In this document: positions 1 through 58,456 of the stretch, piece by piece
Layout of the letters: each line of letters opens with the position of its first letter
Numbering within the stretch: position 1 is the first letter of the stretch
IMG/VR virus record: IMGVR_UViG_3300035190_000963
Location: 1-61,359 of that record
DNA length: 61,359 bases
DNA from: a virus
Direction: 5' to 3' (one strand)
Notes under the pieces: generated by a model
Databases searched by the model: none
What the model was told of the DNA's origin: nothing
The model's input: the letters and a program-made list of their open reading frames with translations, nothing else
Made by a program: the position numbers and the translations under genes

Positions 1-69
1 GACGGGAATCGAACCTCGTGGCACAAGAAATTTCCGTTTCTCTGCTCTACCTACTGAGCTACCTCAACC
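1..69 (-). tRNA. tRNA, 3' end cut by window edge; anticodon unclear
   Basis: Minus-strand cloverleaf with 5' acceptor GGTTGAG, a D-arm with GTAGAGC and a T-loop TTCGATT. The last acceptor bases lie outside the window. The anticodon arm closes only around an 8-base loop (ACGGAAAT) without T33, and the T-stem carries one extra A. It is either degraded or unusual, so the isotype is left open. Confidence 0.6.
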
Positions 70-77
70 ATTTTTTG

Positions 78-158
78 TACCCCCTGTAGGATTCGAACCT
101 ACATGCTAATTTGCGATAGTTTCTAAAACTATTGTGTCTACCATTCCACCAAGGGGGC
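78..158 (-). tRNA. tRNA-Leu (TAG)
   Basis: Acceptor GCCCCCT pairs with AGGGGGT. The anticodon stem ATAGT/ACTAT encloses loop TTTAGAA, giving anticodon TAG. A long variable arm is present, as expected for leucine tRNA. The T-loop is canonical and CCA is not encoded. Confidence 0.9.
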
Positions 159-166
159 AATTGTTG

Positions 167-240
167 TGGTCCTCACAGGAATCGAACCTGTTACCTAATG
201 ATTATGAGTCATTTGCTCTAACCAAATGAGCTAGAGGACC
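167..240 (-). tRNA. tRNA with CAT anticodon (Met or Ile2)
   Basis: Perfect acceptor GGTCCTC/GAGGACC and anticodon stem AATGA/TCATT around CTCATAA, giving CAT. From sequence alone it could be elongator Met or a lysidine-modified Ile tRNA. Confidence 0.9.
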
Positions 241-251
241 TTTAATTATTG

Positions 252-335
252 TACCTCGAATAGGACTCGAACCTATACGACCTTTCAGGTCACCACATCT
301 TAAGCGTGGCGTGTCTACCATTTCACCACCGAGGC
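252..335 (-). tRNA. tRNA-Leu (TAA)
   Basis: Class II tRNA with a long variable arm. Anticodon stem CCACG/TGTGG encloses CTTAAGA, giving TAA. It is the first gene after the promoter at 359-390 and probably heads the array running off the left edge. Confidence 0.9.
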
Positions 336-358
336 GTTTTATTTCTCAAATAACAACA

Positions 359-390
359 CAAAGATAATCAATATTTTACAAAAAGACAAA
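359..390 (-). promoter_or_regulatory. Bacteroidetes-type promoter of left tRNA array
   Basis: On the minus strand TTTG (390-387) is followed after exactly 20 bases by TATCTTTG (366-359). This matches the -33 TTTG / -7 TAnnTTTG consensus of Bacteroidetes sigma-A. Transcription would start just before tRNA-Leu(TAA). Confidence 0.7.
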
Positions 391-501
391 TCTTTGTTTA
401 TTTTTTTGGTCACTCTTCAGCATTCTACTTCCAGCTCCGAGAAATTGTATCTAACTTAGCCCGTCTCACCGCTGTACGGGTACTGAAGTTGATGACCTTT
501 G

Positions 502-601
502 TTGTTAGGATGGGACTCGAACCCACAATGAAAACCCGTCTCGGGTACCATAACCGTTTCGGCTTAAAGGATTGACTCCTTGGACTATTTTCTACCTAAC
601 A
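502..601 (-). tRNA. tRNA-like element with atypical core
   Basis: A perfect acceptor TGTTAGG/CCTAACA and a good T-arm (GTGGG TTCGAGT CCCAT) frame the element. A class II style hairpin ACCCG-AGA-CGGGT sits before the T-arm. No normal D-arm or 7-base anticodon loop can be folded; the middle instead holds AAGGA/TCCTT and CCG/CGG hairpins. It may be a tRNA-like domain of the larger RNA and not a decoder. Confidence 0.45.
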
Positions 602-822
602 ATTCCCCACTCTGAGAATCCGAGTGAGTAGTTATATCGGTTTATTACTGTTTGAAAAACCTGTCGGGCATCCCCTATTAAAAAGTCAACCGTTACTGGG
701 AGCAAGGACGATTCTCCAGCTTTATTCCCACGAGACTGGCGTTTAAGGATGTCCAGTCCAATACCCTATCCATTGTTAAATGAGTCTTGGATTAAAGACT
801 GCTGAGTATCTCTTACTCATTG

Positions 823-893
823 TAGTGTAGAAAGGAATTGAACCTTTAATCTTCCGAATAACTTCAGGGCTTTAACCATTAAGCTACTACACT
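823..893 (-). tRNA. tRNA-like element with shortened anticodon arm
   Basis: Acceptor AGTGTAG/CTACACT, D-arm GCTTAATGGTTAAAGC and T-arm AAAGG TTCAATT CCTTT are all good. Only 21 bases lie between D- and T-stems. They fold as CTGAA/TTCGG with a four-base loop GTTA, so no anticodon loop is available. It is either a decayed tRNA or a non-decoding tRNA-like structure. Confidence 0.55.
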
Positions 894-1007
894 ATGTCCC
901 AAACTTCACTTAACACGTCTGTTAAGGGGTGTCGTGCACCGTACACCATAATCAATTCGGAAGTTTCGAACCTTCCAGTTTCAGGATAATTAATCCTGAG
1001 ATTTGAA

Positions 1008-1188
1008 ATCATGGACAGGATTCGAACCTGTATTCTCATGGATTGACAACTTCCACTTGTACTGAGAATCTACGATGATTTTGAAATTGTACTTCTTTCT
1101 AATCATCAGCTACCTACTCATCACCTTGTCATTCGCTTCGTGTAGGTCATTGCTAATTGTAGTGCGTCTACCGTTTCGCCACCAGATT
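1008..1188 (-). tRNA. tRNA-Leu-like element with ~95-base insertion
   Basis: The 5' part (AATCTGGTGGCGAAACGG, then GACGC) and the 3' T-arm ACAGG TTCGAAT CCTGT are leucine-like. The anticodon stem halves CTAC and GTAG are separated by an insertion that contains ATTAG (possible TAG anticodon) and two hairpins, ACCTAC/GTAGGT and GATGATT/AATCATC. The variable arm is stem ATTCTCA/TGAGAAT. The acceptor needs one bulged T. It is too short for a group I intron. Confidence 0.5.
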
Positions 1189-1213
1189 ATATTTTATTCA
1201 AAGAACTTGAGTA

Positions 1214-1245
1214 CAAAAATATGAGTTTTTTTTGGAACTACCAAA
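1214..1245 (-). promoter_or_regulatory. Bacteroidetes-type promoter of RNA unit B
   Basis: Minus strand TTTG (1245-1242), a 20-base spacer, then TATTTTTG (1221-1214), matching TAnnTTTG. It lies directly upstream of the tRNA-Leu-like element and unit B. Confidence 0.65.
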
Positions 1246-1471
1246 ATTTTTTTCATATATAATTTTTTAATTAATAACACCCTGATTTATCCAACTTACA
1301 GGTGTTAAGGCTGTCCCCATTTTTGGGTTAGGAATAATCATTCGTCCTCACGAGGTCGAGCTGACTTGCTCAAGAGTTATCCCCATCCACTCTTATGTAG
1401 GTTCCCATACGGACATCACTCCGTTTCTCATCGTGTAGGGCACACTATCCGTTGTCGTGTTTCGGAACGTG

Positions 1472-1616
1472 TAATCAGGACAGGACTCGAACCTGTATGT
1501 ATCAATTAAAAATGTCGTCTTACTAAACATAACGCAAGACCGTCTATTATGATATGCGAGAGCCTAATTCGCATTTGATACTACATTTTAGCGTCTACCA
1601 GTTCCGCCACCTGACT
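1472..1616 (-). tRNA. tRNA-Leu-like element with ~60-base insertion
   Basis: Acceptor AGTCAGG/CCTGATT, D-arm GCGGAACTGGTAGACGC and T-arm ACAGG TTCGAGT CCTGT are intact. The anticodon stem AAAATGT/ACATTTT encloses an insertion with hairpins ATGCGA/TCGCAT and GTCTT/AAGAC. GTATCAA in the insertion can alternatively pair with TTGATAC in the variable region. It is embedded in RNA unit A. Confidence 0.5.
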
Positions 1617-2233
1617 ATGTTGAGGATGAGAAGTCCTCTGTGTTGTCTGTACTGTTTTACCCATCATTAAAATGACCACCTTTTTTATTAAAGTCAGTTT
1701 CATACATAGCATCTGTTCAGTCTTCCTTTCTCAAGGGAACAACACATTTTTTGAAATTGTTCAGTTAGACCATCTCTCCGCTATTACGGACATTCTGCAT
1801 AAACTGGTTTTCGTACAGATAGTCTGCACTCGGCCTTACAATTTCATTTAAACATCCCACTCAATGCTCGGTATTAACACATTTAGGGATGTCAACCCCA
1901 CTTTACTCAAATGGGGGGTGATACCGAATTAAGTTAGATAGTGTTGGGATACCCGTCTCGTCCCAATCTTAACAGCTTTATTTAAGTTTTACGAAGCTTC
2001 GGCTGAGGGTGCTGTACACTATGAACCTTACAACTACTTTGTCGACTTTCATTGTAAGAGTGACCACTATCTATATTTTTAAAGGAAAACAGAAGATGGT
2101 CGAGTGGACATCTGTTTTTACGAACGGCATTACTATGTTGGTTTCAACTCCGAAGGTAATCACCAACCACCAACAGGTGTCTTATCCTTCATTCCCCATT
2201 CAACCCTATTTTTCAAAGAACTTCTTATATATT

Positions 2234-2274
2234 GGGGGACAGGTCACCAACTAACCAACACAAACCTGTCCCCC
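2234..2274 (-). other. Perfect 11-bp hairpin at 5' end of RNA unit A
   Basis: GGGGGACAGGT pairs perfectly with ACCTGTCCCCC around a 19-base loop. A related hairpin with the same GTTGGTGACC strand lies at 4325-4361. There is no U-run on the minus strand, so it is more likely an RNA 5' element than a terminator. Confidence 0.55.
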
Positions 2275-2287
2275 TCAAATCTGAATA

Positions 2288-2319
2288 CAAAGTTACAAAA
2301 TATTTTTCAATTCTCCAAA
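2288..2319 (-). promoter_or_regulatory. Bacteroidetes-type promoter of RNA unit A
   Basis: Minus strand TTTG (2319-2316), a 20-base spacer, then TAACTTTG (2295-2288), a full match to TTTG-N20-TAnnTTTG. It sits between the stop of the 2339 gene and the RNA. Confidence 0.7.
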
Positions 2320-2338
2320 CCTTTCACAAAAAAAATTA

Positions 2339-2662
2339 TTATTCATCATCGTCATCAAAATTAAAATCATCATTTTCAGAAAATGTAAAATCTTCCATTT
2401 GTTCATCACTGAATTGTTGAATATACAAACCAAGATTTTTCTTGAAGTCATATCCTAATGAAATCAAATCTTCGGTTAGTTTTTCCCATTCAGGATATTT
2501 GTTTCCATAATAAGATAAGTTCTTATCCAAGTCAGACATGTACATATAAAAAGACCACATCGGAATTTCCATTGAACTATTGTTATCCAAAGTTAAAATG
2601 AATGTACTTTCTTCATATTCCGTGAAGTTAAACTCAAAGTTTTTTATTGTTCTCGAATTCAT
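2339..2662 (-). CDS. Hypothetical acidic protein
   Basis: 107 residues, not recognised. The C-terminal 20 residues are almost all Asp, Glu, Asn and Phe, ending in a run of aspartates. No signal peptide or membrane segment is visible. It lies just upstream of the promoter for RNA unit A. The strand and length agree with neighbouring small phage genes. Confidence 0.6.
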   Translation of the reverse strand: MNSRTIKNFEFNFTEYEESTFILTLDNNSSMEIPMWSFYMYMSDLDKNLSYYGNKYPEWEKLTEDLISLGYDFKKNLGLYIQQFSDEQMEDFTFSENDDFNFDDDDE

Positions 2663-2707
2663 AAAACAAATCTAAAAATAATTTTTGTAATAATCAATTT
2701 TTTTTTG

Positions 2708-2779
2708 AGCACCAAGAGAATTACGATATCTCGACCTGCGGTTTGGAAAACCGCCGCTCTACCTCTGAGCTATTGGTGC
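2708..2779 (-). tRNA. tRNA-Gly (TCC) with non-canonical T-loop
   Basis: Acceptor GCACCAA/TTGGTGC with discriminator T, anticodon stem GCGGT/ACCGC around TTTCCAA, giving TCC. The T-arm is GAGAT-ATCGTAA-TTCTC: the loop has A54 and T58 in place of T54 and A58. The 5' end overlaps the stop of the nuclease gene 2759-3577 by 21 bases. Confidence 0.8.
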
Positions 2780-3577
2780 ATTTATTTTAGATATAATATT
2801 CAAAATTTCTTTTTCATATTGTTTTTTCAATAAAGGTTTAACATCAAATCTAATAATGTTGTGATATTTTTTTATAATATTTTCTCTAGTAATTTCCTTA
2901 TTACTATTTTTATCATGCCATTGTTCACCGTCTATTTCAACCACTAAATTTATTGATGGGAAATAAAAATCAACATAATATTTCTCAACAGGATATTGAG
3001 TAAAAAAATCATAATCTTTAATTAAATTATTACTTGTTAAAAATTCCCTAAAAAATCTTTCAGGATATGTTTCATTTATCTTAGAACATCTCCTATTTGG
3101 ATGACTTTCAGGATTATTTTTATACCTCTCAATTATCTTACTTCTTATTTTTTCTTTTACTATTTCTGAATTATAAGAACATTTTTTTGAACAATATATA
3201 TGATGACTTTTTTTAACTTTTTTCCCACAATTTAAACATTCTTTTCTTTCTTTTAAAACACAATTTTTCAAATTTGAGTTTTTAATTTTTTTCTTAGTTT
3301 CTTCAGACAAAATTCTTTTTCTGTTATTGAAAGACACTCCGCAGCTTCTACCACAAAATTTCCTATCATCTGAAACATGACTTTCAAAAATTTGATGACA
3401 ATTTAAACATTCTTTTTTTATTTTAGTTTCTTCTTTAGATTTTTTAAAACCTAATCTTAAACATCTACTTGTTACTGAACGATAAGTGGTATTCAGTATT
3501 TCACTAATTTCTTTGTAATTTTTTTTGTTATTCAATAGTTCTAATAACAAATTATCTTTTTCATTGTTCCATTTCAT
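2759..3577 (-). CDS. Homing-type nuclease: helix-turn-helix, zinc clusters and PD-(D/E)XK-like C-domain
   Basis: 272 residues. The N-terminus (1-40) resembles an HTH/SANT-like DNA-binding domain. Two Cys clusters follow, with C-x2-C and C-x3-C spacings near residues 57-80 and 117-134, likely zinc knuckles. The C-terminal part (about 165-265) has the DUF559/Vsr-like signature with YYVDFYFP, then VVEIDGEQWHD, a plausible Mg-binding nuclease core. The stop codon falls inside the tRNA-Gly(TCC) gene, as if the nuclease gene had landed next to a tRNA. It could be a free-standing homing endonuclease of the phage. Confidence 0.65.
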   Translation of the reverse strand: MKWNNEKDNLLLELLNNKKNYKEISEILNTTYRSVTSRCLRLGFKKSKEETKIKKECLNCHQIFESHVSDDRKFCGRSCGVSFNNRKRILSEETKKKIKNSNLKNCVLKERKECLNCGKKVKKSHHIYCSKKCSYNSEIVKEKIRSKIIERYKNNPESHPNRRCSKINETYPERFFREFLTSNNLIKDYDFFTQYPVEKYYVDFYFPSINLVVEIDGEQWHDKNSNKEITRENIIKKYHNIIRFDVKPLLKKQYEKEILNIISKINAPIAQR

Positions 3578-3641
3578 ATATTATAAATATATGTAAAAAG
3601 AGTAAAAGTTAATAATCGAACTATGTTTTTACTTAAAATTG

Positions 3642-4789: not shown

Positions 4790-5194
4790 CTACTTTTTTT
4801 TGGATTTCAAAAACTTTTTCCAAATTATTTTTTTGTGTTCACTCGCAACCCGTCTAGCCTCAATCTCAAAAGGATGATTATTATACCCATACTCCTCAAG
4901 TAATGACATGTATTTAGTTCTACAAGGTTGTAAAGAATGAGTGTATTCGTGAACAAATGTTTCAATAAATTTACATATGTCCTTGGTGTTTTTATAATAA
5001 ACCCTTATTTCATTTATACATGGTCTGTATTCACCAAAATTTATAGTATTCTCCTCATCTGTTATTACGATGCTAAGTCCTCTCTTTTTTCTTGAGTTAT
5101 AACCAAAAACATCCATACAGTATTGCAAAGCAAACTTAATGATTTGGAGTCTTTGTCTTCTTGTTAACTTATTGACAGATGAATTTATCCTCAT
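4790..5194 (-). CDS. HEYTH metalloprotease-like protein
   Basis: 134 residues. Residues 81-88 read TFVHEYTHSLQ-like, an HExxH zinc-binding motif after an aliphatic helix, as in SprT-like and other small zinc proteases. A downstream acidic segment (EIEARRVASEHKK) could give the third ligand. TATCTTTG lies just upstream, so the promoter is host-type. Substrate unknown. One of seven HExxH proteins in the window. Confidence 0.6.
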   Translation of the reverse strand: MRINSSVNKLTRRQRLQIIKFALQYCMDVFGYNSRKKRGLSIVITDEENTINFGEYRPCINEIRVYYKNTKDICKFIETFVHEYTHSLQPCRTKYMSLLEEYGYNNHPFEIEARRVASEHKKIIWKKFLKSKKK

Positions 5195-5739: not shown

Positions 5740-6426
5740 TTACTTTTTTTCATAATTTTTAAATTTTAAAAAGTTCTTTTTAAATGTTTTCTTCAAGATT
5801 ATTGATGATTCTTTCCATGTTGAATGAGGTACCGTTGATAAATAAGCTTGAATCTCATCATCAATTATACTTTTAATATCAACATATCCCATTTTAACCA
5901 ATTCTTTATTTAAATAGTTATAAGTTTTTGTGGGAATTGTTTTAATAATCTCATTCACTTCCAACTTATATTCAGGATTTGTATAATATAATCCGTGAGC
6001 AATTTCGTGGTCCATAACATCGGAACTTAATTTATCAGCACCAATTAAATAGAACTTTTCATTTTTAGAATGTTTATCACAACAAGAAATAATATCTGCC
6101 ATAACATCATCATATAAATTATTAGTTTTAAAAAAAACTTTCTGACCTTTTTTTAGAACATCGGATGGAATATTATAACCCGCCCAATCTGCAGGATATG
6201 TGAACATTCCTGATTTATTTTTCTTAACATATGTCCTCATAAGTTCTTCCAAAGTAAATTCTTTATTTCTAATCTCAGGAAATGGTGACTCATAAAATTC
6301 TTGATATCTGCAGAACAACATACCTCTATCATAATCGTTTTTAACAATAACGGCATATATGTGGGGCATAATTTTATTAATTGAACCTGACACCACTTTT
6401 GACTTAAAAGATTTTAATTTTTTCAT
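5740..6426 (-). CDS. HEIAH metalloprotease-like protein
   Basis: 228 residues. DVMDHEIAHGLYYTNPEYK near residues 134-150 is an HExxHG zinc-protease motif. Tyr and Glu residues follow (NPEYKLEVNEI), and Glu could be the third ligand. No signal peptide, so it would act in the cytoplasm or from the virion. The family is common in large phages but functionally undefined. Confidence 0.6.
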   Translation of the reverse strand: MKKLKSFKSKVVSGSINKIMPHIYAVIVKNDYDRGMLFCRYQEFYESPFPEIRNKEFTLEELMRTYVKKNKSGMFTYPADWAGYNIPSDVLKKGQKVFFKTNNLYDDVMADIISCCDKHSKNEKFYLIGADKLSSDVMDHEIAHGLYYTNPEYKLEVNEIIKTIPTKTYNYLNKELVKMGYVDIKSIIDDEIQAYLSTVPHSTWKESSIILKKTFKKNFLKFKNYEKK

Positions 6427-7687: not shown

Positions 7688-7728
7688 ATTTATAAATTTT
7701 CAAACCAATATGTCAAAGAACTAAAACA

Positions 7729-7963: not shown

Positions 7964-8230
7964 TTAATACTTGTTTATTATTTTTTTAATTGTTTCTTCT
8001 TCTTCAACTGTCAATCTCAATCTTAGTGATAACAATTTATCACAAAGGATATCCCACTCTAAATCCAAAACATTTTTTTCTATGTTTATATCATGAGGTA
8101 ATGAACTTTTATTTAAATGACCTTCATCAACTAATATCTCAATTAGTTCTTTGATTTCACGTTTTGAACATGAAGAAACAAAATCGTCAACTTCAACGTC
8201 AATTTCAGCATCTTGATTAAATGTTGGCAT
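7964..8230 (-). CDS. Hypothetical acidic protein
   Basis: 88 residues, predicted mostly helical and acidic, not recognised. It follows the 8235 gene after 4 bases and is probably cotranscribed with it and the archaemetzincin gene. Confidence 0.65.
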   Translation of the reverse strand: MPTFNQDAEIDVEVDDFVSSCSKREIKELIEILVDEGHLNKSSLPHDINIEKNVLDLEWDILCDKLLSLRLRLTVEEEETIKKIINKY

Positions 8231-8234
8231 AGTT

Positions 8235-8492
8235 TTATAATTTTTGAATTTTAATCATATAATCACTCACTTCAGGTTCTGTTAGATAACCTATAACATC
8301 ATTAGTTATTGGTGTATCATAATTTAAACCTTCCTTATCTAACACCGCAATCTCATAAAGACCTATTGACCCACCATATGTATGGTCTCCTTGGACAACA
8401 GAGATTCCGTATCCATTTTCAAACATTATAATCGCTTGAATTGAACGACCAAATCCGGCACTTTTGAAAGTTAAATCGTCAAATGTTTTCAT
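8235..8492 (-). CDS. Conserved small phage protein
   Basis: 85 residues with MKTFDDLTFK at the start, FENGYGISVVQGDHTYGG in the middle and YDTPITNDVIGYLTEPEV near the end. I recognise this pattern from many uncharacterised phage proteins with GYGxSV and DTPITxDVIG motifs; no function is known. Its start overlaps the end of the archaemetzincin gene by 14 bases. Confidence 0.7.
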   Translation of the reverse strand: MKTFDDLTFKSAGFGRSIQAIIMFENGYGISVVQGDHTYGGSIGLYEIAVLDKEGLNYDTPITNDVIGYLTEPEVSDYMIKIQKL

Positions 8493-9123
8493 TTAATGTT
8501 ATTTTGGATGAACAATCGTCACAAAAATTAGACCCATAACTAACATCATATCCATTTCCAAAGGTTGACATAACACAGTGAGAATCTGAACAATGAGATA
8601 GCCCTAATGTGTGTCCGTATTCATGAATTAAAGTTTCTTTAAATGGCGATATTGTACTCACTAATATCGTGTTTCCACCACAAATTCCCATAACACTAGT
8701 AATACCATCATCATCCGTCATTTCTCTATCAGTTATGATAATTCTCTTCCGAGATGTACCATAATTTAGTTTTTCAACACTATAATACGGATTAATTTTA
8801 TCATAGTTCGCATAAAATAAATCTTCAGTATAATCAATACCATCAACTATTTTTGTCGTAACACCAAATTTTTCAGATATTACATGAGATGCTTTTTCTA
8901 ATGTTGAATTTTTGATAACACCCAAACTCAATATATATACGGTATCATCAACGGGTTTAGTTGTTTCCCACGTTTCTTTTTTCAAGAGACCACTCATGTC
9001 TCCATCATTTTTAATACCATATTCTGTAATACCTACGATTACCAAGAATATTAAACCGTAATTTACGATTCTTTTTGCTAGTGTGTCTTTTTCTCCGAAG
9101 AGGAATACTTTTAAATTTTTCAT
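8479..9123 (-). CDS. Archaemetzincin-like metalloprotease with membrane anchor
   Basis: 214 residues. A hydrophobic segment at about 18-35 suggests a signal anchor. HEYGHTLGLSHCSDSHCVM near 167-185 matches the archaemetzincin signature HExxHxxGxxHCxxxxCxM. FCDDC near the C-terminus supplies the structural CxxC pair. All key residues are present, so an active zinc aminopeptidase-like enzyme is likely. A paralogue lies at 57854-58456. Confidence 0.8.
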   Translation of the reverse strand: MKNLKVFLFGEKDTLAKRIVNYGLIFLVIVGITEYGIKNDGDMSGLLKKETWETTKPVDDTVYILSLGVIKNSTLEKASHVISEKFGVTTKIVDGIDYTEDLFYANYDKINPYYSVEKLNYGTSRKRIIITDREMTDDDGITSVMGICGGNTILVSTISPFKETLIHEYGHTLGLSHCSDSHCVMSTFGNGYDVSYGSNFCDDCSSKITLNENI

Positions 9124-57853: not shown

Positions 57854-58456
57854 ATGAAATATATCTTATTGTCCATTCTTTTGATTATAATTAACAATGT
57901 TAATTCGAATATTTATAATCCTCTTATAAAAAAAGAAAAATTAAAAATTGGTATTACTGTAATGGGTAATGTTGAAAAAAATGATATAAATTTAATTAGA
58001 GATAATTTGATTAAATTTTATGATTGTGAAGTGGTTTTACTTCCAAAGACAAAATTATTGACCGAAACTAAAGTTATGGGTACTGATAAATATTCTGCGA
58101 ATAAAATATTGGAAAATATGAATAAAATATTCTCCAATAAAGAATATAAAATCTTAATGATAACAAATTATAACATATGTACCGATAGAAAATTAAATGG
58201 TGTCACACATAAAAATTGGAGTATTTTTGGATTAGCGTTTTTGAATAAAAAACCTTGTGTTGTATCAACAAATAGATTGAAGGGTAGTAAAGAAAAATTA
58301 GTAAAAACATCTATTCATGAAATTGGTCACACATTAGGAATACCACATTGTGAAAACGATAGATGTATTTTAACTGACGCCAAAGGAAAAGGTAGTCGAG
58401 TTGATAACATGAAGATATGGTTGTGTGAAAATTGTACTAAAAAAATAAAATATTAA
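57854..58456 (+). CDS. Secreted archaemetzincin-like metalloprotease
   Basis: 200 residues with a signal peptide (MKYILLSILLIIINNVNS). HEIGHTLGIPHCENDRCIL near 155-173 and WLCENC near 190 match archaemetzincin, but the Met after the second Cys is replaced (CILTD). Paralogue of 8479-9123. It would act outside the cytoplasm. Confidence 0.8.
   Translation: MKYILLSILLIIINNVNSNIYNPLIKKEKLKIGITVMGNVEKNDINLIRDNLIKFYDCEVVLLPKTKLLTETKVMGTDKYSANKILENMNKIFSNKEYKILMITNYNICTDRKLNGVTHKNWSIFGLAFLNKKPCVVSTNRLKGSKEKLVKTSIHEIGHTLGIPHCENDRCILTDAKGKGSRVDNMKIWLCENCTKKIKY

Follow-up and report, generated by a model that had tools for sequence, protein, structure and literature searches.

Our analysis of a 61,359-nt stretch of viral DNA, here referred to as the window (a 61-kb virus record with 24 tRNA-type genes), revealed a two-unit RNA array on the minus strand (2281-1270 and 1245-405) within the tRNA cluster of a huge Bacteroidota-type phage. 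The array comprises the predicted modules X, W, K, T and Y in unit 1 and M6, Z and M8 in unit 2. In each predicted unit, a promoter and a boxA-like element are followed by a chain of structured modules and tRNA or tRNA-like elements. Compensatory base changes in homologues support nearly all modules, and the same modules were found in new combinations in more than 100 other viral sequences. A sequence-only reading of the DNA had proposed a kilobase structured RNA here. The region is indeed structured, noncoding and located on the minus strand, but it is not self-contained, being unit 1 of a modular array that extends to about position 405. The array reading replaces that of a single RNA family because related phages carry the modules individually and in different arrangements. 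Overall, the phage probably has an array of stable RNAs organised in two transcription units, of which this region is the first. Its features, in the order of transcription, are as follows.

2288-2319, minus strand: promoter of unit 1, a perfect TTTG-N20-TAACTTTG that ends 7 nt before position 2281
2234-2275, minus strand: leader hairpin of unit 1, with a perfect 11-bp stem GGGGGACAGGT/ACCTGTCCCCC; a similar hairpin occurs in locus L116
2213-2222, minus strand: boxA-like element of unit 1, AGTTCTTTGA, shortly after the promoter
2083-2204, minus strand: module X, which ends in the covarying hairpin AAAACAGA/TCTGTTTT
1937-2075, minus strand: module W, five helices closed by GATAGTG/CACTATC
1747-1936, minus strand: window-specific segment, with helices 1926-1921/1874-1869 and 1892-1886/1858-1852
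1622-1746, minus strand: module K, with helix P1 (1746-1739/1646-1639), kissing loop (1733-1728 with 1632-1627) and variable insert (1722-1647)
1472-1616, minus strand: tRNA-like element T-A, with acceptor AGTCAGG 1616-1610/CCTGATT 1479-1473, D arm, T arm 1496-1480 and insert 1590-1497
1270-1472, minus strand: module Y, the 3' end of unit 1, closed by AACACC/GGTGTT
1214-1245, minus strand: promoter of unit 2, TTTG-N20-TATTTTTG
1198-1207, minus strand: boxA-like element of unit 2, AGTTCTTTGA, shortly after the promoter
1007-1188, minus strand: tRNA-like element T-B, with an imperfect acceptor and an insert that has a covarying homologue in locus L369
933-1008, minus strand: module M6, two covarying hairpins (one of them T-arm-like) and a D-arm-like hairpin
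822-893, minus strand: tRNA-type gene without a readable anticodon ('tt', two bases, in the ARAGORN output); module Z comes immediately after it
603-822, minus strand: module Z, with 22 homologues, most of which begin where a tRNA or T element ends (3')
502-601, minus strand: tRNA-like element T-C, with acceptor TGTTAGG/CCTAACA and T arm and no clear D arm
405-500, minus strand: module M8, the 3' end of unit 2

An IMPDH-like protein led to 80 related phage contigs, and its best INPHARED matches were uncultured phages of 460-640 kb; neighbouring proteins used as queries retrieved only one near-identical fragment. A DNA search with positions 2340-340 matched 41 of 50 related contigs, only piecewise and with some pieces repeated within one contig, while BLAST of the region against INPHARED phages and PLSDB plasmids gave no convincing match. 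The order of the modules differs among the related contigs, as in a mosaic, and most modules directly adjoin a tRNA 3' end; X mostly comes first and Y last. These related loci are fragments of metagenomic contigs whose hosts we infer: the promoter type together with the boxA-like element points to the phylum Bacteroidota. Among the densest arrays is L265 (positions 1-3600, minus strand), in which many tRNA-like elements with different inserts, W, Z, M6 and real tRNAs are packed into 3.6 kb. The window also encodes an HNH-type endonuclease within the tRNA cluster (2759-3577, minus strand), possibly a homing or cassette-moving enzyme. Elsewhere it encodes several small proteins with HExxH-like metallopeptidase motifs (4790-5194, 5740-6426, 8479-9123 and 57854-58456).

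Protein coding was ruled out for the region, as its open reading frames on both strands do not exceed 86 amino acids and a Pfam search with eight of them gave no match at an E value of ≤1, which agrees with the initial impression that no protein gene fits. The many perfect helices noted by eye were also recovered: the region contains 17 perfect helices of at least 7 bp within 200 nt, compared with 9.1 ± 3.2 in dinucleotide shuffles (3 of 200 shuffles reached 17), an excess that is modest by itself. The corresponding numbers for interleaved helix pairs were 31 and 14 (31 was reached in 7 of 200 shuffles), and the single-sequence folding energy of 200-nt chunks was weak (z of +0.4 to −1.8). Since these single-sequence signals are modest, the case rests on covariation in homologues.

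A cmscan search of the whole window with all 4227 Rfam families returned only tRNAs. Between 336 and 2710, at E values of up to 10, it gave only tRNA matches and chance matches, the tRNA matches at 502-601 and 1007-1079 being weak and containing insertions. The covariance models of GOLLD (its conserved 3' domain) and ROOL matched neither the window at gathering threshold, nor positions 336-2710 at E ≤ 10, nor the homologous loci at gathering threshold, and the group I intron, group II intron and tmRNA models had no match in the window or, at E ≤ 10, in 336-2710. Given the absence of cmscan matches at E ≤ 10, GOLLD, ROOL, tmRNA, group I and II introns and other Rfam families were ruled out as the identity of the RNA; visual inspection had likewise failed to recognise a GOLLD or ROOL consensus, so that the model search (GOLLD, ROOL and both intron groups) and the eye agree. 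The array has no counterpart in Rfam: we found no prior description in Rfam 15 and only work on GOLLD and ROOL in the open-access literature. We rate it as a new kind of phage RNA organisation, with an earlier publication being possible, because of its shuffled modules and its frame-and-insert design.

The minus-strand RNA had been placed behind a full promoter, and the sequence at 2288-2319 is an exact match on that strand. The Bacteroidota-type motif occurs at 19 sites in the window, compared with 2.1 expected, which indicates that it is real in this phage genome. The boxA-like element lies just past the promoter, as in an rRNA-like stable-RNA operon, and is enriched in T-bearing loci (45 occurrences versus 3 in one shuffle). 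Upstream of the 16S rRNA, GTTCTTTGA was present in 16 of 19 related host loci; these 16S loci come from the class to which a Sphingobacteriales MAG belongs and include sufficient sequence upstream of the gene. BoxA has a known role in rRNA leaders, and we infer by analogy that the boxA-like element of the units would act as a boxA. Two more AGTTCTTTGA sites occur in the window (7713-7722, minus strand, and 8145-8154, plus strand), one of which heads the main tRNA block. At the 3' boundary of unit 1 (1270), no clear intrinsic terminator was found. A comparison of the host 16S loci with the region revealed no shared or complementary stretch of at least 12 nt, and complementarity to, or mimicry of, these loci was ruled out on this ground. 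By analogy with the rRNA leaders, it is quite probable that the unit is transcribed like rRNA, with the help of host antitermination, as a long untranslated precursor.

The expectation that homologues would show helix-preserving substitutions was borne out by a covariation check, in which nearly all modules displayed compensatory changes. In W, 15 of 25 pairs showed such changes, 96.7% of cells were paired and the signal exceeded that of 500 of 500 shuffles; M8 likewise showed changes in 15 of 25 pairs (score of 0.484 versus 0.184), and M6 in 7 of 16. The alignments of Y, X and the K insert of the window comprise 6-9 sequences each: compensatory changes affected 9 of 21 pairs of Y, with 99.2% paired (six sequences), the terminal helix of X was 100% paired with three compensated pairs, and the K insert covaried with five aligned homologues. 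In Z, the first hairpin covaries; the quality of the Z alignment did not permit counting over the whole structure. The K frame, counted on spliced frames with the inserts taken out and on sequences picked for variety, covaried under both the slide and the shuffle controls. When partners were moved by one to three columns (slide control), the covariation signal was lost in every case. In the shuffle control, kinship alone can lift sequences above shuffles without any structure; nevertheless, a kinship artefact is unlikely in view of the slide control and of how many different pairs are compensated.

We then scored how often a module starts a fixed short distance past a T arm, a position that corresponds to the 3' terminus of the preceding tRNA or T element. 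This was the case for 13 of 14 M6 copies, 7 of 9 Y copies and 13 of 19 Z copies, against a background of 0.4%. For M8 the count was 6 of 23, several others following K, and for K in tRNA arrays 23 of 72; some copies of K and W have no tRNA end before them. The position of the module starts suits release by RNase P and RNase Z, which would cut the precursor at the ends of the tRNAs and tRNA-like elements and set the modules free. The T elements would then become stable, CCA-tailed, tRNA-shaped RNAs that do not decode and carry an insert in place of the anticodon arm. On balance, we consider this release of modules and T elements likely.

The array could instead be a further, so far undescribed member of the large ornate phage RNAs that functions without being cut and assembles from RNA alone, like GOLLD or ROOL, with the tRNA-like element and inserts being peripheral or linker parts. 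Its size, its site in a phage tRNA island and its conserved kissing loops are common to GOLLD and ROOL (PMC12286853), and X tends to come first and Y last, as if they were the ends of a single molecule. However, the modules occur separately, reordered and beside real tRNAs, so that cutting fits better than a fixed particle, and the GOLLD and ROOL models found nothing. We regard this alternative as improbable; if one fixed particle were shown, the array would belong with the large ornate phage RNAs.

The feature that had first drawn attention was an interleaved pseudoknot in the segment 1936-1747. Both helices are present, as CGGTAT (1926-1921)/ATACCG (1874-1869) interleaves with ACATCCC (1892-1886)/GGGATGT (1858-1852). 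A BLAST search with this segment among the related loci gave no convincing homologue, and the only related segment, in L342, is shorter and lies between W (before) and K (after) of that locus. It has GCGTAT/ATACGC for helix 1, with two compensated pairs, and a local hairpin in place of helix 2. The comparison thus lends thin support to the first helix, whereas the second is without homologue support. Judged from these alignments, this pseudoknot appears to be the least conserved part of the array, and the conserved kissing loop of module K is a better candidate for a pseudoknot, as is, by sequence potential only, a pair of helices within the insert of T-A.

The K frame has the order TGTGTTGT-TCCCTTGAGAAAGGAA-insert-ACAACACA-GAGGACTTCTCATCCTC, and its kissing loop is formed by TGAGAA (1733-1728), the reverse complement of TTCTCA (1632-1627) in the second hairpin. 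The 20-mer GTTGTTCCCTTGAGAAAGGA of the frame had at least 120 matches in viral contigs, and the 20-mer shifted by one base occurred in only two contigs among 84,980 prokaryote genomes. A scan for changed loops yielded eight matches, of which three were real K frames; the other five, without the remaining parts of the frame, were seemingly due to chance. In L270 and L373, both sides of the kissing loop have changed (TGAGAA to TGATAA and TTCTCA to TTATCA), and in L237 both loops have changed with partial pairing. The K frame is also held by a second RNA of about 350-600 nt, with the order AGGTTAAACATTGAATACCT ... ACATAAAGATACTATCAG ... K ... AAATGAGTTCTCAGCAAGTAGTTA ... TAACTACGTGACCCTACTC ... 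AGAGGGTGCTAA, which was found at 33 loci (including L142, L158, L161, L146 and L147) and directly after a tRNA in 0 of 49 cases. Phage tmRNA genes adjoin this second RNA at L215:1225-1547 and L161:2254-2658. Similar inserts occurred in both K contexts (L214 and L154; L169, L181 and L205). No insert family common to K and T was found among 326 inserts, 199 of which had no relative within the set.

The T frame consists of the acceptor AGTCAGG/CCTGACT, a D arm and a T arm, with a variable insert where the anticodon arm belongs. The tRNA-like element that the sequence-only reading had seen embedded in the region corresponds to T-A (1616-1472), in which acceptor stem, D arm and T arm are all recognisable by sequence and which ARAGORN and the Rfam tRNA model both missed. 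Its 7-bp acceptor contains one G-U pair, and a 94-nt insert replaces the anticodon arm. Within this insert, for which no homologue was found, AAAATGT (1589-1583)/ACATTTT (1515-1509) and GTATCAA (1581-1575)/TTGATAC (1505-1499) could form a pseudoknot, a potential read from the letters only. The insert of T-B recurs before a CCTGTCCTGACT 3' end in L369.

A scan of the related loci for acceptor, D arm and T arm yielded 848 distinct tRNA-type elements. Those with the acceptor AGTCAGG, GGTCAGG or AGTTAGG were defined as the T class (257 elements), and T-A is the only one of the three T elements of the window with a class acceptor. A canonical anticodon arm, with a 5-bp stem and a 7-nt loop after the D arm, was present in 14 of the 257 (5%), compared with 354 of the other 591 (60%), and the median distance between D and T arms was 54 versus 23 nt. 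Loci chosen by the K pattern rather than by T gave a similar picture (5 of 103 versus 168 of 295). The T frame is near-invariant in more than 100 elements; the inserts, mostly 38-70 nt long, recur in different contexts, and some insert families show compensatory changes among their members, as judged by eye. Of the T elements, 134 have a further tRNA-type element no more than 3 kb away, and every one of the 134 lies on the same strand as the nearest such element. Collectively, the alignments showed that K and T are conserved frames with exchangeable inserts.

Acceptor, D arm and T arm as in a tRNA, along with the weak gapped matches of the Rfam tRNA model to T-B and T-C, would be expected of ordinary tRNA genes that carry introns or decay. 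Introns are unlikely because pairing of the insert flanks into an anticodon stem is no more frequent than expected by chance (0.27 versus 0.27 in shuffles, for inserts of at least 46 nt), compared with 0.71 versus 0.17 in other tRNAs, and no intron model matched; decay is at odds with the near-invariant frame. On the chance-level pairing, intron-bearing or decayed tRNAs were ruled out, and we give them hardly any weight. Only slightly more credible, and still very improbable, is that T elements resemble tmRNA, as tRNA shells charged by an anticodon-blind enzyme (LeuRS) with an insert acting at the ribosome. The design principle is that of tmRNA, the D arm appears tRNA-Leu-like, judging from known tRNA-Leu features, and a real tmRNA is also encoded in some contigs (L215 and L161). 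Nevertheless, the tmRNA model did not match the T elements of the searched loci, these elements retain their D arm, which tmRNA does not, and in the mostly 38-70-nt inserts a shared tag-like reading frame was not seen.

The conserved acceptor, T arm and D arm and the lost anticodon arm would also suit a decoy role, in which T elements would bait host enzymes whose attack on tRNA is directed at the acceptor, T arm or tail, and the variable part would do no more than abolish decoding. One conceivable target of such decoys is Cas12a3, which recognises the tail, acceptor and T arm when it loads tRNA (PMC12851939). This proposal is unlikely as well, since it leaves the structured, recurring inserts unexplained, along with modules K, W, Y, Z and M8. 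A stable-RNA operon cut by tRNA enzymes fits best, because the elements form an ordered same-strand chain with rRNA-type leaders, conserved frames and free inserts; T would serve as a tRNA-shaped carrier. In the most likely reading of the sequences, tRNA-processing enzymes would set free the array products as stable RNAs, whose inserts may be the parts that do the work. That the inserts do have this role, and that their diversity reflects conflict with host factors (such as tRNA-directed defence nucleases or other RNA-binding proteins), is a doubtful further idea. It is scarcely less tentative to suggest that huge Bacteroidota phages own a combinatorial cassette system, in which two kinds of conserved frame, one a non-decoding tRNA shell and the other built around the kissing loop, present hundreds of exchangeable RNA domains. 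These RNAs would be transcribed with host rRNA antitermination, released by host tRNA-processing enzymes and act as a diversifying set directed at host factors.

If our reading is true, a widespread class of phage noncoding RNA is absent from Rfam, built as arrays of structured modules shuffled between tRNAs, and the role of large phage RNAs near tRNA islands gains a modular, testable form. The inserts would then amount to a catalogue of evolved RNA domains, possibly binding host proteins, and the T elements to a natural version of an engineered tool. In the laboratory tRNA scaffold, an RNA of interest is placed at the anticodon position of a tRNA and is processed and stabilised as a tRNA; T elements would be its natural counterpart, arranged in arrays and putatively processed.

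Among known systems, ordinary phage tRNA arrays share the location, strand and promoter type and real tRNAs are interleaved here as well, but the present array has structured modules and non-decoding tRNA-like elements between its tRNAs. The leader of bacterial rRNA operons likewise has a promoter followed by the boxA-like GTTCTTTGA, whereas the array units contain no rRNA. With tmRNA (RF00023), T elements share a tRNA shell in which a large pseudoknot-capable domain replaces the anticodon arm; in contrast to tmRNA, they keep the D arm and have hundreds of different inserts, and a contig holds several of them, arranged in tandem with tRNAs. Covariation and the 24 tRNA-type genes mark the array, like GOLLD (RF02032) and ROOL, as large, structured, phage-encoded and close to tRNAs, and it has kissing loops too. 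GOLLD and ROOL have kissing loops and lie near tRNA islands, and GOLLD sometimes holds a tRNA in its linker (PMC12286853). However, they are single cage-forming RNAs, whereas in the array the modules have been reshuffled from phage to phage and alternate with tRNA ends.
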